Positions 1,706 to 10,150 of a stretch of 11,533 bases of DNA are shown here, one piece after another. Position 1 is the first letter of the stretch. Every line of letters starts with the position of its first letter. The position numbers were made by a program, and so were the translations under genes. The DNA lies in the NCBI GenBank assembly GCA_031273145.1, contig JAISSL010000050.1, positions 1-11,533 on the forward strand. Direction: 5' to 3'. The notes beneath the pieces were generated by a model. That model saw nothing but the letters and a program-made list of their open reading frames with translations. It did no database searches and was not told the DNA's origin. The stretch comes from Zoogloeaceae bacterium. Lineage in GTDB: Bacteria; Pseudomonadota; Gammaproteobacteria; Burkholderiales; Rhodocyclaceae.

Positions 1706-1930
1706 ATGACTGAAGCAACGATGACCGTAAAGGGACAACTGACGGTGCCTCGGGAAATTCGCAACCAGCTAGGCTTGAAAACTGGCGACAAGGTAGCTTT
1801 CACGATGCTGAGCGATGGAACGGTCGTGGTACGACCGAAAACGCGACGGCTCGCGGAACTGGCCGGTTCGCTAACCCGGCCTGGTCAGCCTTCTGTGTCG
1901 CTCCAGGAAATGGATCCGTTCAAGCGGTGA
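1706..1930 (+). CDS. vapB: AbrB/SpoVT-fold antitoxin of a VapBC-type pair
   Basis: A 74-residue antitoxin expected to bind and neutralise the PIN-domain toxin encoded just downstream and to repress the shared promoter. The N-terminal 45 residues carry the swapped-hairpin AbrB signature: a VKGQLTVPREIRNQLGLKTGDKV stretch (split here as VKGQLTVPREIR and NQLGLKTGDKV, residues 8-30) followed by DGTVVVRPK. The remaining C-terminal tail (about residues 46-74) is polar and ends DPFKR, as expected for the toxin-binding segment that is disordered when free. The start at 1706 was chosen from the AAGGA site and domain alignment; a start at 1664 would add 14 residues of no family likeness. The stop overlaps the toxin start as GTGA. 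Confidence 0.88.
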   Translation: MTEATMTVKGQLTVPREIRNQLGLKTGDKVAFTMLSDGTVVVRPKTRRLAELAGSLTRPGQPSVSLQEMDPFKR

Positions 1931-2331
1931 GCATTGCCATTGATACCAACGTGCTGGTGCGCCTGTTCGTTCGTGACGACGAGGCGCAACACAGAGCCGC
2001 TCGGCGTTTGGTCGAACAAGCTGAGGCGGCGGGGGAATCCATTCTCATCATGTTGTGCGCCTTGCTGGAAACCGAGTGGGTGCTGCGTAGCCGCTACAAA
2101 CTTGACAAGGCATCCATTGCGGGTTCATTTACGCAATTGCTTGAGAGTGCGGGCGTTGAGTTTGAGCATGAGCCAACGGTGGAGGAAACCCTCTATTTGT
2201 GGGCGCAGTACCCACGCGCAGACTTCGCGGACTGCCTGTTGTCTGCGCGGGCATCCCATCTTGGCCGCAGTCGTTTCCTGACCTTCGATACAGATGCCGC
2301 GCAGTTGCCGCATGGCGAACTGCTCAAGTGA
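1927..2331 (+). CDS. vapC: PIN-domain ribonuclease toxin, VapC family
   Basis: VapC toxins are Mg2+-dependent endoribonucleases of the PIN fold that cut RNA, often tRNA or rRNA, and stop translation when freed from VapB. The 134-residue product has the acidic active-site residues in the expected order: D6 in IDTNVLVR, E48 and/or E50 in LLETEWVL, D99 and D102 in ADFADCLL, and D121 in LTFDTDA. The start is GTG at 1927, overlapping the antitoxin stop by 4 nt; no good Shine-Dalgarno site precedes it, so translation probably depends on coupling, which keeps toxin output below antitoxin. The 3' end converges on the propeller array with only 10 nt between stop codons and no terminator. The RNA target cannot be told from sequence. 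Confidence 0.92.
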   Translation: MSIAIDTNVLVRLFVRDDEAQHRAARRLVEQAEAAGESILIMLCALLETEWVLRSRYKLDKASIAGSFTQLLESAGVEFEHEPTVEETLYLWAQYPRADFADCLLSARASHLGRSRFLTFDTDAAQLPHGELLK

Positions 2332-2341
2332 CAAACTCCGG

Positions 2342-3364
2342 TCACACAATCTTCGGATTGACTGGAATTTCGATACGCTGCCAATCCGTGCCGTCGAAGC
2401 GGGCGAGGTCTTTACTGCCTATCATCCAGAGTATGCCATCCTTGGCGTCGACGGAATGGACATCTTTCAGGGGCGGGTTGAGCGGGGTCTTGAGCGGACG
2501 GATGCCGTCATCCGGCTGGTTGGGGTCGTAGACAAAAGGTCCAAGATTGGAACCCAGATACACCATGCCGTTAAACATCGTGATGGACGTAAAAAGCTGA
2601 TTGTCCTCTACAGTGGATAGGCTTTTGAAGCCATCATCGGCGTTGCCCAACAAAAGGGTGCCGTTATGACCGCAGAGCCAGATACGGCTTTCGGATTCCG
2701 CAAAGATGCGGGTAAAGTATCCGGCAACCTCTGGAACCGCGACTTTCCGCCAAGCCTTGCCGTTCCAGAAGAAGAGGAAGGGAGGCAATCCCGTGGTAGA
2801 AATACTGCCCGCCAGATAGATGGCGGATTCATGCGGACCGTTGATGTCGTTTGGAATCCAGAATACCTCATCCCCAGGCTTTCCCAGTATTCCTTTGTCC
2901 ATGTGCGCCCATTTGTGCAACCCTGTGCGCTTGTAGACCTGCCCGCTCGTTCCGCAGGCATAAAGATGTTTGCCGATCTGCCGAAGCTGTGTCATGTAGC
3001 CGTAGCCTACGGAATCTTCCCAGTTCAGCCCCGCGCCGGGAATTCTTTCCATGTATTTTTCATCACCTGCCCCTTCTCCAACGCGCCTCAACACAACATT
3101 GCCTTCCTCCGACATATAGCCCAAAAAAGACTTTGGTCCAATAAACCTGACCATTGCCACATTCACCCAAGAATCAAACTTCAAGAATCTCCACTGGTCG
3201 TTCACCAGCCGCTCGGCGTAGGTGATGACAAGAGAATGACCATAATCATCCTCTTCGTCTGTGTTATTCAGTTTGCCCGACAGATAGAGCAGATCCCCCA
3301 AGGCGGCAATGCCATTGGTAAACCTGAATGTGGAATTGGCAGGTTCGCATGTGGGTGTGTACAT
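2342..3364 (-). CDS. Uncharacterised cytoplasmic beta-propeller-like protein, array copy 1 (last in transcription order)
   Basis: I do not recognise a named family. The 340-residue product has no signal peptide or membrane helix. It shows about seven repeats of 34-45 residues with a hydrophobic strand, a Gly, and a closing Trp or aromatic: LGDLLYLSG (22-30), VAMVRFIGP (69-77), IGKHLYACGTSGQVY (130-144) with KWAHMD, ESAIYLAGS (179-187) with NGKAWRKV, SRIWLCGHNGTLLL (226-239), NGMVYLGSNLGPFVY (265-279), and GILWMIGSKDLARFDG (310-325). This reads as a seven-bladed propeller, a fold that usually binds a partner rather than catalysing. The start at 3364 is fixed by a strong AAAGGAG site. Relative to copies 2 and 3 the tail is altered: it ends PKIV instead of PKIWYTP, next to vapC. 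An in-frame upstream extension lies inside copy 2 and is not credible. Confidence 0.85.
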   Translation of the reverse strand: MYTPTCEPANSTFRFTNGIAALGDLLYLSGKLNNTDEEDDYGHSLVITYAERLVNDQWRFLKFDSWVNVAMVRFIGPKSFLGYMSEEGNVVLRRVGEGAGDEKYMERIPGAGLNWEDSVGYGYMTQLRQIGKHLYACGTSGQVYKRTGLHKWAHMDKGILGKPGDEVFWIPNDINGPHESAIYLAGSISTTGLPPFLFFWNGKAWRKVAVPEVAGYFTRIFAESESRIWLCGHNGTLLLGNADDGFKSLSTVEDNQLFTSITMFNGMVYLGSNLGPFVYDPNQPDDGIRPLKTPLNPPLKDVHSVDAKDGILWMIGSKDLARFDGTDWQRIEIPVNPKIV

Positions 3365-3372
3365 TTTGTGAT

Positions 3373-3379
3373 CTCCTTT
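3373..3379 (-). promoter_or_regulatory. Strong Shine-Dalgarno site of array copy 1, overlapping the stop of copy 2
   Basis: AAAGGAG on the minus strand lies 8 nt before the ATG at 3364. The TAA stop of copy 2 (3378-3380) shares two bases with it, so ribosomes ending copy 2 finish on the site that loads copy 1. This decides the start of copy 1. Confidence 0.85.
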
Positions 3380-4400
3380 AAGGCGTGTACCAAATCTTCG
3401 GCTTGACCGGAATTTCGATACGCTGCCAGTCCGTGCCATCGAAGCGGGCGAGGTCTTTGCTGCCTATCATCCAGAGTACGCCATCCTTGGCGTCGACGGA
3501 ATGGACATCTTTCAGGGGCGGGTTGAGCGTGGTTTTGAGCGGACGGATGCCGTCATCCGGCTGGTTGGGGTCATAGACAAAAGGTCCAAGATTGGAACCC
3601 AGATACACCATGCCATTAAACATCGTGATGGACGTAAAAAGCTGGTTGTCCTCTACAGAGGATAGGCTTTTGAAGCCATCATCGGCGTTGCCTAACAAAA
3701 GGGTGCCGTTATCGCCGCACAGCCAGATGCGGCTCTCGGATTCCGCAAAGATGCGGGTGAAGTATCCGGCAACCTCTGGAACAGCGACTTTCCGCCATAC
3801 CTTGCCATTCCAGAAGGCCAGGAAGGGGGGCAATCCTGTGGTGGAAATACTGCCCGCCAGGTAGATGGCGGATTCATGCGGGCCATTGATGTCGTTTGGA
3901 ATCCAGAATACCTCATCCCCAGGCTTTCCCAGTATTCCTTTGTCCATATGCGCCCATTTGTACAACCCTGTGTGCTTGTAGACCTGCCCGCTCGTTCCGC
4001 AGGCATAAAGATGCTTGCCGATCTGCCGAAGCTGTGTCATGTAGCCATAGCCCACGGAATCTTCCCAGTTCAGTCCCGCGCCGGGGATTTTTTCCATGTA
4101 ATTTTCATCACCTGCGCCTTCCCCGACGCGCCTCAATATGACATTGCCTTCCTGCGTCATGACACACATAAAGGGTTTTGGTCCAACAAACCTGACCAAT
4201 GCTACAGTTACCCAGTGTTCAAGTTTCATGAACTCCCACTGATCACTTGCCAGTTCATCGTAAATTATGTGGAGTGAGTCCTCTTCGTCTGCGTCATCCA
4301 GAACGCCTGAAAAATAGAGCAGATCTCCCAAGGCCGCAATGCCATTGGTAAACCTGAATGAGGAATTGGGAAACTCAAATGCGAGAGGTTTCAGCTTCAT
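3378..4400 (-). CDS. Uncharacterised cytoplasmic beta-propeller-like protein, array copy 2 (intact)
   Basis: This is the best-preserved unit of the array: 340 residues, intact, with the full PKIWYTP tail. Blade-like repeats match copy 1 from about residue 85 onward with few substitutions (for example FLAFWNGKVW for FLFFWNGKAW, CGDNG for CGHNG). The first 85 residues differ more: the N-terminus is MKLKPLAFEFPNSSFRFTN rather than MYTPTCEPANSTFRFTN, and the strand after LDDADEED is shorter. No signal peptide or membrane segment is visible, so the protein should be cytoplasmic unless exported by a specialised system. The start at 4400 follows AAAGGAG; an upstream in-frame extension runs through copy 3 sequence and is rejected. 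Function unknown; partner binding is the usual role of such folds. Confidence 0.87.
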   Translation of the reverse strand: MKLKPLAFEFPNSSFRFTNGIAALGDLLYFSGVLDDADEEDSLHIIYDELASDQWEFMKLEHWVTVALVRFVGPKPFMCVMTQEGNVILRRVGEGAGDENYMEKIPGAGLNWEDSVGYGYMTQLRQIGKHLYACGTSGQVYKHTGLYKWAHMDKGILGKPGDEVFWIPNDINGPHESAIYLAGSISTTGLPPFLAFWNGKVWRKVAVPEVAGYFTRIFAESESRIWLCGDNGTLLLGNADDGFKSLSSVEDNQLFTSITMFNGMVYLGSNLGPFVYDPNQPDDGIRPLKTTLNPPLKDVHSVDAKDGVLWMIGSKDLARFDGTDWQRIEIPVKPKIWYTP

Positions 4401-4408
4401 CTTGTGAT

Positions 4409-4415
4409 CTCCTTT
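4409..4415 (-). promoter_or_regulatory. Strong Shine-Dalgarno site of array copy 2, overlapping the stop of copy 3
   Basis: AAAGGAG on the minus strand lies 8 nt before the ATG at 4400 and overlaps the TAA (4414-4416) of copy 3 by two bases, the same arrangement as between copies 2 and 1. Confidence 0.85.
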
Positions 4416-5453
4416 AAGGCGTGTACCAAATCTTCGGCTTGGCCGGAATTTCGATGCGCTGCCAGTCCGTGCCGTCGAAGCGGGCGAGGTCTTTGCTGCC
4501 AATCATCCAGAGTATGCCATCCTTGGCGTCGACGGAATGGACATCTTCCAGAGGCGGATTGAGCGTGGTTTTGAGCGGACGGATGCCATCATCCGGCTGG
4601 TTGGGGTCGTAGACAAAAGGTCCAAGATTGGAACCCAGATACACCATGCCATTAAACATCGTGATGGACGTAAAAAGTTGATTGTCTTCCACAGTGGAGA
4701 GGCTTTTGAAGCCATCATCGACGTTGCCTAACAAAAGGGTGCCGTTATCGCCGCACAGCCAGATGCGGCTTTCGGATTCCGCAAAGATGCGGGTAAAGTA
4801 TCCAGCAACCTCTGGAACCTCGATTTTCCGCCATACCTTGCCATTCCAGAAGGCCAGGAAGGGGGGCAATCCCGTGGTAGAAATACTGCCTGCCAGGTAA
4901 ATGGCTGATTCATGCGGGCCATTGATGTCGTTTGGAATCCAGAATACCTCATCCCCAGGCTTTCCCAGTATTCCTTTGTCATATGCACCCATTTGTGCAA
5001 CCCTGTGTGCTTGTAGACCTGCCCGCTCGTTCCGCAGGCATAAAGATGTTTGCCGATCTGCCGAAGCTGTGTCATGTAGCCATAGCCTACGGAATCTTCC
5101 CAGTTCAGCCCTGCGCCGGGGATTTTTTCCATGTAATTTTCATCACCTGCGCCTTCCCCGACGCGCCTCAACATAACATTACCTTCCTGCGTCATGGCGC
5201 AGGCGAAAGACTTGGGGCCAATAAACCTGACCAATGCCACATTCACCCAGTGATCAAATCTTAGAAAACTCCACTGATCAGGCTGGATTGATTCGCAGTA
5301 GGCAATGACGAGGGAATGCCCATAATCGTCCTCCTCGCCTGCATCGTCCAAAGTGCCCGACAGATAGACAAGAGGGCCTAAGGTTCCCGAGGCTGCAACG
5401 GCATTGGTAAACCTGAATGTGGAATTGGCAGGCTCGCATGTGAGTGTGTACAT
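4414..5453 (-). pseudogene. Propeller-like array copy 3 (first in transcription order), split by a 1-nt deletion
   Basis: The unit starts at ATG 5453 after the same AAAGGAG leader and is homologous to copies 1 and 2 over its full length. At 4980 the plus strand reads GTCATATG where both siblings read GTCCAT, so one base is missing. Translation from 5453 follows the family to KWVHM, near residue 158, then leaves frame and stops at 4728 (241 residues). The remainder, from DKGILGKPGDEVFW to the intact PKIWYTP tail, lies in another frame ending at 4414. Restoring the base would give about 346 residues; the 6 extra over the siblings come from blade 1 (around ASGTLGPLVYLSG and DDYGHSLVI). A restart at ATG 4992, with AGGG 8 nt upstream, could make the C-terminal part separately. 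A sequencing error is possible too. Confidence 0.8.
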
Positions 5454-8199: not shown

Positions 8200-9876
8200 T
8201 CACTTCGACAAGCCCGTTTCCATACGGAATTCATGCGCCGGCCAGTCCATCTGCGCCGCTCTGGCGGCCTGACTCCCATCCAGCAGGGAGACCAGCCAGA
8301 TGAGAAAAAACGCAATGCCGACCGGGAAAAGCCCCGGCAGCGTCGTAAAGAAAAACGGGTCGTTCCCGCCCGCAAGCGGCTCCCCGGCTCTAAGAAACGG
8401 GGAAAAAGGCGCTGCCGCAAGCGAGAGTATAAGGCCGCAAGCGCCTCCGGTCACGAGGCCGATCGCCGTGCACCGCTTCCAGAACAACGCCATGAACAGG
8501 ACCGGCATGGTCGACGATGCCGCAATGGAAAACACGAACGCGACAAACAGCATCAGGTTTTGTCCCGCCAAGCCTTGCGCCAGCACAATTGCGCCCGCAA
8601 ACAGAAAAAAAGGCATGATCCGAATCAGGCTCTGTTCCCGGTGCGGGTTGGCCTTGCCCCGGCAAATCCCCCACACGTAAATATCGTATGAGACTGCCGC
8701 AACCATGACCCGAACCAGTTTTGCGGCTACGGCAATCAGGGTGATGGCGGCAAGCGCGGCAAACGCGCCGGTGACGATCTCGCCCCCCAGCGCGCGAAAG
8801 AGGTACAGCGCCGTCAGGTTATCCCCGCCTGACGGCACGGGAAACGCGCCCAGCGATAATCCTTCCTGATAGATACGCGCCACGCCATGACAGAGTACGC
8901 CCATCAGGATTAAGAACATGCCGATCAAACCCGTCGCGCACAACGCGGATTTGCGCGCTTCCTTCGCGTTGGAGGTCAGGGGAAAGCGGGAGAGCGTAAA
9001 CGGTAAGCCCAGACTCCCCAAAAACAGGATGCCACCCAACGAAAAAAGCACGCCCGGCTCGGCAAACGCCGGAAAGGCAAGTCCGTCCTCTGCCGCCTTT
9101 TCGTCATTCAGCATCCCATTCAGTCTGGAGACGGCTTCGCTCACGCCATCCGGCGCTACATCCAGATTCCAGAAAATCAGAACCGCAAACGCAAGCACTC
9201 CAAAAAACAAAAAAATGGCCTTGACGATTTGCAGCCAGGTCATGGCCAGCAAGCCCTTGCCGCCCAGATAGAACAGAAGCAGCACGCCCGCAATGCCCAC
9301 CCCAAGCCAGTATTCAAAATCGAACAGAAAACACAACAGAAGCCCCGCGCCCAGCAATTGCGCGGCAAGGCAGGGAAAGGCAATCGCCAGGGTCGCAAGC
9401 GCGGCAAAAAACCGAACCAGTCTGCCGGGAAAACGGCTGGCGAGAAAATCGGCAAACGTGTAATCGCCCAGGTGGTAGAGCCGTTCCGACAGAAGCAGGG
9501 CAATCAGTGGCCAGCCCATGAACAGCCCCAACAGGCAAACCATCGCCACCTGCCCGCCATCTACCGCCAGAGCCGGAATGCCCATCAGCGTTGCAACCGT
9601 CACATAAGCGCCCGTTATCGCAAGCCCATTCTGAACGCCATTCAAGGTATGCAATTCCGGCTGGCGCTTGATGTCTTCCCGGCTCTTTTCCGCCGCCCAT
9701 TGCGCCGTCAACAGGCTAAAGAGGGCAAAGACAAAAAAGGTGGAAATCATCCCAAAGCCGCTGGTATCGGCGGAATTTGCCCCGGCTTGTGTTGCTTCTG
9801 CCCAACACGAGGCAGGCCAGAACAGGAGACCCGCCAGACACGCAGGCAAAAACCCTAACAGCTTAATCTTTTGCAT
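8200..9876 (-). CDS. Sodium:solute symporter family transporter, ActP-like
   Basis: This inner-membrane permease of the SSS family resembles the acetate permease ActP of E. coli, although its substrate cannot be proven. The 558-residue product starts with a signal-like segment (MQKIKLLGFLPACLAGLLFW, cleavage plausible after A26), as ActP does, followed by many hydrophobic helices. Shared landmarks are LNGVQNGLAITGAYV, MGWPLIALLLSERLYHLGDYTFADF, MTWLQIVKAIFLFFG, GSLGLPFTLSRF, and AKEARKSALCATGLIGMF. The start at 9876 is preferred over an in-frame ATG at 9939 because of a GGGAGG site and the signal peptide. It overlaps the small partner gene by 14 nt. Oddity: the helix aligned to ActP [15 protein letters not shown] carries K386 and R389 where ActP has Gly and Thr, close to the usual sodium site. 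Expected to import a small organic acid. Confidence 0.85.
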   Translation of the reverse strand: MQKIKLLGFLPACLAGLLFWPASCWAEATQAGANSADTSGFGMISTFFVFALFSLLTAQWAAEKSREDIKRQPELHTLNGVQNGLAITGAYVTVATLMGIPALAVDGGQVAMVCLLGLFMGWPLIALLLSERLYHLGDYTFADFLASRFPGRLVRFFAALATLAIAFPCLAAQLLGAGLLLCFLFDFEYWLGVGIAGVLLLFYLGGKGLLAMTWLQIVKAIFLFFGVLAFAVLIFWNLDVAPDGVSEAVSRLNGMLNDEKAAEDGLAFPAFAEPGVLFSLGGILFLGSLGLPFTLSRFPLTSNAKEARKSALCATGLIGMFLILMGVLCHGVARIYQEGLSLGAFPVPSGGDNLTALYLFRALGGEIVTGAFAALAAITLIAVAAKLVRVMVAAVSYDIYVWGICRGKANPHREQSLIRIMPFFLFAGAIVLAQGLAGQNLMLFVAFVFSIAASSTMPVLFMALFWKRCTAIGLVTGGACGLILSLAAAPFSPFLRAGEPLAGGNDPFFFTTLPGLFPVGIAFFLIWLVSLLDGSQAARAAQMDWPAHEFRMETGLSK

Positions 9877-10150
9877 CACGCGCCTCCCGCACCAGCGCGG
9901 CTTCCTCTGGATCAAAAAGCGCCCTGCTCTGCCGGGCATACCTGCGTAAAAGCGCCAGAAACAGAATGATCGTCCCGGTTACGCCATAAAAGTGCCAGTT
10001 CGCCAGAGCGCCGTAGGTCAGGCAGGCCAGAACCGCAACCCCCAAAAGAAGGAGCAAGCCCGCCCATTTGCGCTGAACGACACGGCGCTGGCGAATCAAC
10101 GCCTGATAGCGCGGGTCGGAAAAGAGACGGGAAACCAGCCTGGCGTGCAT
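9863..10150 (-). CDS. Small two-helix membrane protein, symporter partner (DUF485/DUF4212-like)
   Basis: The 95-residue product has two hydrophobic helices, about residues 30-50 (WAGLLLLLGVAVLACLTYGAL) and 54-68 (FYGVTGTIILFLALL), flanked by basic N-terminal and mixed-charge C-terminal tails. Genes of this size and topology, such as yjcH before actP in E. coli, commonly precede SSS-family permease genes and are thought to be accessory subunits. The assignment here rests mainly on topology and position: its stop at 9863 overlaps the symporter start by 14 nt, so the two are probably translated together. I could not assign it firmly to either DUF family. Start at 10150 has only a weak purine-rich stretch (TAAGA) upstream. 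Confidence 0.75.
   Translation of the reverse strand: MHARLVSRLFSDPRYQALIRQRRVVQRKWAGLLLLLGVAVLACLTYGALANWHFYGVTGTIILFLALLRRYARQSRALFDPEEAALVREARDAKD
9883..9888 (-). promoter_or_regulatory. Ribosome binding site deciding the symporter start
   Basis: GGGAGG on the minus strand lies 6 nt before ATG 9876, inside the end of the upstream small gene. It selects this start over the in-frame ATG 63 nt upstream. Confidence 0.7.

Follow-up and report, generated by a model that had tools for sequence, protein, structure and literature searches.

The contig JAISSL010000050.1 of Zoogloeaceae bacterium (assembly GCA_031273145.1) was analysed over a stretch of 11,533 nucleotides, referred to below as the window. 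Beside mutS it carries an array of three paralogous genes on the minus strand, whose products are predicted beta-propellers and are considered here as candidate immunity proteins against effectors of the type VI secretion system (T6SS). The array comprises the following features.

2342-5453, minus strand: three tandem paralogs on one strand, the propeller gene array (open reading frame (ORF) listing)
2342-3364, minus strand: copy 1, intact, 340 residues, transcribed last, propeller immunity-like (ORF; propeller profile, 446.8 bits)
3365-3377, minus strand: gap of 13 nt before copy 1, with a Shine-Dalgarno-like leader, AGGAG (sequence)
3378-4400, minus strand: copy 2, intact, 340 residues, propeller immunity-like (ORF; AlphaFold2 model with pLDDT 93.6 and pTM 0.92; fold matches)
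4116-4400, minus strand: variable N-terminal part of copy 2, codons 1-95 (windowed identity, Nei-Gojobori dN/dS)
4401-4413, minus strand: gap of 13 nt before copy 2, with the same leader as before copy 1 (sequence)
4414-5453, minus strand: copy 3, frameshifted, mutS-proximal, transcribed first (ORFs 5453-4728, 241 residues, and 4992-4414, 192 residues)

A sequence-only reading of this DNA had described a tightly spaced set of three tandem paralogs of about 340 residues. The tandem set and the tight spacing stand, with gaps of 13 nt between the copies, but only two copies are intact, the frame of the third being broken near position 4980. Because the part of copy 3 past the break keeps a dN/dS of 0.10 against both other copies, the break is either recent or an assembly error. 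The G+C content of the array is 52.2%, as compared to 57-59% in the five neighbouring genes or gene pairs measured. Promoter-like sites occur at chance level (3 vs. 3.1 expected), and terminator-like sites number 11 vs. 5.5 expected. Same-strand tandem paralogs with small gaps and no toxin between them are the layout of a homogeneous polyimmunity locus, a label that presumes the paralogs to be immunity proteins, as they probably are.

The AlphaFold2 model of copy 2 is a confident beta-propeller, which bears out the fold proposed earlier. Foldseek and VIA-align revealed generic propeller similarity, with no immunity protein among the 50 matches listed by each. At 340 residues, the window proteins have the size of PefE/Tsi7-like beta-propellers (~320-340 residues). 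No Pfam, NCBIfam or PADLOC model matched them at its cut-off, in agreement with the earlier failure to recognise a named family. At E up to 0.001, a protein search returned 211 propeller homologs, of which 120 are listed, and the named ones among those listed are called 'hypothetical' or 'uncharacterized'. Sequence searches of the PDB gave nothing, or generic propellers (two-component sensors, Ycf48, designed propellers). The photosystem II assembly factor Ycf48 was considered and rejected: its NCBIfam equivalog model PRK13684 scores 11.4 bits vs. a cut-off of 326. It is likewise very improbable that the array codes for a co-opted housekeeping or assembly-factor propeller, a Ycf48/WD40-like scaffold with no tie to toxins in this organism. 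Such a role would suit the weak Ycf48 profile and fold similarity and the location of one homolog (L057, Terrarubrum plasmid) beside metabolic genes, but it fits poorly with that score, with a patchy distribution (of 19 other genomes of the genus, one matches the propeller, so that the locus varies between close relatives) and with the linkage of relatives' propellers to toxins described below.

The neighbourhoods of propeller homologs were studied in 35 loci (25 from a genome scan and 10 stretches fetched from 38 plasmid records), the ORFs of which were called and searched with propeller and toxin-domain profiles. The loci are not fully independent: L023 and L024 are related, and several records come from Rhizobium and Agrobacterium. 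In 19 of them, 23 direct toxin-propeller pairs were found, the toxin gene always upstream on the same strand, with gaps of -151 to +186 nt. The C-terminal domain of the upstream proteins contains HHxxxD, a Cys and HxxxH, and is nuclease-like; two of the toxins counted here or in the family scan below, at L012 15905-16285 and in L107, are fragments without the HH part. The pairs often lie within T6SS operons of the vgrG-DUF2169-Tox-PAAR-like type. The clearest locus, L017, has the order ClpV, VgrG, DUF6484, DUF2169, ketoacyl-synthase-like, Tox-PAAR-like with HHxxxD, propeller, TIGR02270 and T6SS FHA. It resembles synteny type A of PMC11883445, in which, according to the accessible text, DUF2169, DUF6484, thiolase-like and armadillo-like genes accompany DUF4150 effectors, Tse7 included. 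No toxin partner had been visible in the window, and none was found there; an upstream gene for a Tox-PAAR-like protein with Tox-GHH2/HHxxxD is present beside homologs and not beside the window copies, so that the partner was found in the loci of relatives.

The same association was seen in genome scans that ignore position. Among the 399 genomes of an order scan, 12 matched the propeller profile, 13 the toxin-domain profile and nine both. In all nine, the two matches share a strand, with the toxin first and 44-492 nt between them, the larger distances stemming from partial profile matches. The co-occurrence has a one-sided Fisher p of 2.4e-13, which is nominal because the genomes are related. 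One of the nine, G051, is apparently the L017 genome and so fed into the toxin profile; leaving it out gives 8/11. The toxin profile A4 was built from toxins beside propellers, and A1 and A4 are linked in origin. Four genomes (G050, G273, G284, G314) have the toxin and no propeller match, and two of the 12 propeller matches are weak (G042 and G067, 20 and 28 bits). Of the propeller matches above 50 bits, only that in the window's genome lacks a toxin. In a family scan of 395 genomes a propeller was found in 14. Apart from the window's own, 13 genomes were thus positive, and 10 of them supplied 14 stretches for inspection (G443, G521 and G747 were left out). The propeller is directly preceded by a toxin ORF in 12 of these stretches, that of L107 being the fragment mentioned, and VgrG, DUF2169 or PAAR-like genes are present in 10 of the 12. 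The exceptions are L104, where the propeller stands at the start of a contig and is uninformative, and the orphan L103 from G014, a genome of the window's genus. The only propeller-positive genome common to both scans is G000. The adjacency in the 35 loci and the two scans together strongly support an immunity role.

Tox-GHH2 (PF15635), the domain of PefD and Tse7, was identified by Pfam in some of these toxins. Among 22 upstream proteins, part of them chosen partly for divergent members, nine score above its cut-off (L032, L029, L028, L011 5936-6913, L109, L112, L113, L115, L116), six below it (L018, L105, L108, L110, L111, L017), and seven have no match listed. In one survey this domain is, by the text available, the commonest Pfam domain among the C-termini of T6SS effectors (PMC11148199). 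A model of the toxin domain at L011 4486-4992, made from a 14-row alignment, has a pLDDT of 94.6. In this model the HH pair falls where the first strand ends, and the two later His, those of HxxxH, lie on a long helix; we read this predicted arrangement as compatible with the His-Me finger order given in the accessible part of PMC10902643. The nearest environmental relatives include Pelomonas sp. BJYL3, the source of this L011 domain, and Acidovorax sp. HMWF029, with its nuclease-like domain at L013 300-794. The toxins and their propellers also co-vary. Over 22 of the 23 pairs (L024, a near-copy of L023, was dropped) the two sets of distances correlate with a Mantel r of 0.70, and none of 10,000 permutations reached that value. 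Within the single genomes L012, L059 and L011, toxins that are 21-32% identical precede propellers that are 19-33% identical.

The open text of PMC5714391 and PMC3764213 describes the closest counterpart. PefE (PMI0756) of Proteus mirabilis is a predicted 7-bladed propeller of 320 residues that is required for immunity, and its gene directly follows that of PefD, which has PAAR and Tox-GHH2 domains. An orphan paralog, PefE2, exists, and modular variable regions mapped to residues 92-195 set the specificity. On plates, the toxicity of PefD was seen only without induction of PefE; an ortholog of PefE is reported in the HSI-1 locus (PMC3764213). The window proteins resemble PefE in the size and fold of the propeller and in the existence of an orphan paralog, and their homologs share with it the slot after a PAAR and Tox-GHH2 gene in the same type of operon. 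They differ from PefE in being a toxin-less tandem triplet, in an assembly where no T6SS was found, and in varying within residues 1-95. In a similar way, the Tse7-Tsi7 pair of Pseudomonas aeruginosa, as presented in the accessible text of PMC9846239 and PMC11883445, combines a DUF4150 and Tox-GHH2 effector with a downstream immunity gene in synteny type A.

Two further immunity proteins, Tsi1 (PMC3391265) and XAC2610 (PMC10933484), share a propeller-type fold with the window proteins and, by the accessible text, differ in acting on periplasmic hydrolases, not nucleases; Tsi1 is a partial propeller that counters a peptidoglycan hydrolase. With PefE, these are the propeller-type immunity proteins described in the open literature searched, where no description of a tandem orphan propeller immunity array was found. 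The array form itself has parallels. The homogeneous polyimmunity loci of PMC3482391 are tandem, same-strand, close-set immunity paralogs without toxins in between, as in the window, although the families named in its available text are SUKH, Imm6, Imm11, Imm28, Imm33, Imm36 and Imm41. The rAID arrays of Bacteroidales are likewise orphan immunity arrays guarding against T6SS effectors, built of SUKH proteins instead of propellers (PMC12247911, accessible text). No rAID-type recombinase was recognised by inspection of the ORFs of the 11.5-kb contig, no dedicated recombinase search having been made. For Tde5-like T6SS nucleases, the commonest immunity protein is reported to come from an alternative family without a name, encoded in some cases in poly-immunity loci (PMC13392607). 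Whether that is the family of the window cannot be told from the accessible text of the paper, in which no propeller is mentioned.

In the window's own genome, an assembly that is 86% complete, no match was obtained for VipB, Tox-PAAR-like, the VgrG hub, Hcp, TssK or the toxin domain. The array appears to be an orphan: none of the T6SS markers tested and no such toxin were found in the draft. We consider the array, with a probability of about 0.83, to be an orphan T6SS-immunity locus of PefE/Tsi7-like beta-propellers, a likeness drawn from the fold, the operon slot and published descriptions; by analogy, the family may be taken to work like PefE. Each intact copy would act as a cytoplasmic beta-propeller, binding a T6SS effector as it arrives and blocking it. 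The putative target is a Tox-PAAR-like (DUF4150) spike protein with a C-terminal nuclease, predicted to be of His-Me-finger type (Tox-GHH2-like, HHxxxD). A host in which no T6SS or toxin was found would in this way withstand injection by its neighbours. Through the toxin-propeller linkage, the immunity proteins that answer a common weapon can be searched for. To these the window contributes a tandem set from an assembly where no T6SS was detected, so that the survival of unarmed bacteria beside T6SS-bearing neighbours becomes directly testable.

Several points weigh against an orphan immunity locus of this kind. Four of the 35 loci show only a looser link to a toxin: L025 has a gap of 505 nt, L030 a toxin fragment, L032 a split propeller (propeller ORFs shorter than 280 residues were not counted as pairs), and L034 a PAAR-like gene directly upstream with a toxin domain under the threshold. 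By the criteria used, no toxin was detected in a further 12 (L014, L015, L021, L022, L026, L027, L033, L035, L057, L060, L063, L064). The more window-like toxins (L017, L011 3490-4992) are among those under the Tox-GHH2 cut-off, and a PDB fold search with the L011 toxin model, run to an E of 0.001, found nothing. Nearest neighbours agree between toxins and propellers in just 13 of 22 cases, and part of the correlation comes from common descent of entire operons, which the Mantel r includes. Even the closest propeller with a toxin beside it shares only 48% identity with the window copies and so points to the cognate toxin no more than roughly. The likeness to PefE and Tsi7 comes from descriptions, not from sequence comparison. 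Moreover, PefE is no textbook inhibitor, because it is required for killing as well and, according to a figure legend, did not restore the liquid growth of E. coli making PefD (PMC5714391, PMC3764213, accessible text). Finally, a T6SS may have been overlooked, the assembly being 86% complete, and the N-terminal part of the copies gives, with a dN/dS of 0.23-0.32, no sign of positive selection.

The three copies form a mosaic. Residues 96-340 of copies 1 and 2 are 95% identical, as compared to ~62% for residues 1-95, and the equivalent part of copy 3 is divergent too. Among the three copies (the two sides of the break in copy 3 were taken apart), dS reaches 0.77-0.87 over the N-terminal part vs. 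0.13-0.28 after it, and the dN/dS of 0.23-0.32 compares with 0.06-0.15. Since dS rises along with dN, exchange of N-terminal cassettes, or gene conversion of the remainder, is the better reading. The same split in identity is seen in the metagenomic relatives P0002, P0003 and P0009, barring the frameshifted end of P0009. The N-terminal part may set the specificity, and tandem duplication together with its exchange on a common scaffold would broaden the range of toxin variants recognised. It is possible, though we rather doubt it, that the locus is a modular anti-T6SS repertoire that recombines, swapping N-terminal blades on a conserved scaffold and tracking the toxin variants of neighbours; if true, such a repertoire would let a bacterium without a T6SS keep up with them.

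The purifying constraint across the copies also bears on the idea that the array is a remnant of a lost effector-immunity module, its T6SS and toxin gone and its immunity genes decaying with no present protective role. One copy is indeed broken, and the genus has or had a T6SS, because 3 of the 19 other genomes hold VipB. A second genome of the genus, G014, carries a single propeller gene (L103 1170-2687) with no toxin found alongside and no VipB found either. We regard decay as improbable all the same: a dN/dS of 0.06-0.15 outside the variable part reflects that constraint, the presence of three copies would point to selection, and no toxin-domain or PAAR-like match occurs in the own genome and no toxin domain in any of the 19 genus mates searched.

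The surroundings of the array were compared within the genus. Six stretches around mutS were fetched, five of them informative and reaching ~7 kb past the mutS 3' end; the remaining one, L091, stops a short way beyond mutS. No match to the array, vapBC or glyQ was found beside mutS in the five. Together with the low G+C content, this suggests, short of proof, that the array was acquired, probably by horizontal transfer. Two neighbouring features of the window deserve mention.

1706-2331, plus strand: VapBC-like pair (AbrB/MazE-type antitoxin and PIN-domain toxin), convergent with the array
8200-10150, minus strand: symporter-like gene and gene of a small membrane protein, putative from ORF inspection, between mutS and a NIF3-like gene

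The NIF3-like gene and mutS are less than 100 nt apart in the same-genus stretches L086 and L087. The stop codons of the VapBC-like pair (2331) and the array (2342) are separated by 10 nt, and this convergent neighbourhood is what could make the propellers an accessory of the pair. However, the pair lies on the opposite strand, and an anti-phage system, the related alternative, finds no phage-record or PADLOC match; we give either one next to no credence. A search of 50,697 phage records for the propeller gave nothing, nor did a peptide-pattern scan of IMG/VR, which detects close relatives only, and the array proteins matched no PADLOC anti-phage defence model at E up to 1, although an absent match there carries no weight by itself. 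Among the three roles offered by the sequence-only reading (immunity, sensing and phage exclusion), immunity is the one favoured by the homolog context, and the last yielded no find.

Some of the loci surveyed show features of their own. In Massilia atriviolacea (L027 9914-12785) three tandem propeller homologs form a second orphan triplet, with no toxin domain detected upstream. In Pseudomonas protegens (L032 8383-10414) a Tox-GHH2 effector is followed by the propeller split into two ORFs. An ORF of 850 residues in L060 was considered as a fusion and gave no match to the toxin profile. The Rhizobium plasmid loci L063 and L064, toxin-less by the criteria used, lie within annotated vgrG/PAAR islands, where the propellers adjoin GAD-like domain proteins and have vgrG and PAAR genes upstream; each is perhaps another immunity-rich island.

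Names from Proteus or P. aeruginosa are absent from the matches listed in three protein searches, most of these matches being nameless. One search, started from an Acinetobacter propeller and directed toward Proteus PefE, gave Acinetobacter and nameless relatives among the matches listed. The propeller of an Acinetobacter plasmid (L062 6956-8137) has a stretch of ~50 residues, apparently a C-terminal tail, in common with the DUF3396 proteins P0195-P0200. This stretch makes up 13% of the query and is 58-63% identical, and some of the DUF3396 proteins carrying it are named 'type VI immunity family'; judging by this similarity, the tail is perhaps an exchangeable immunity tail.

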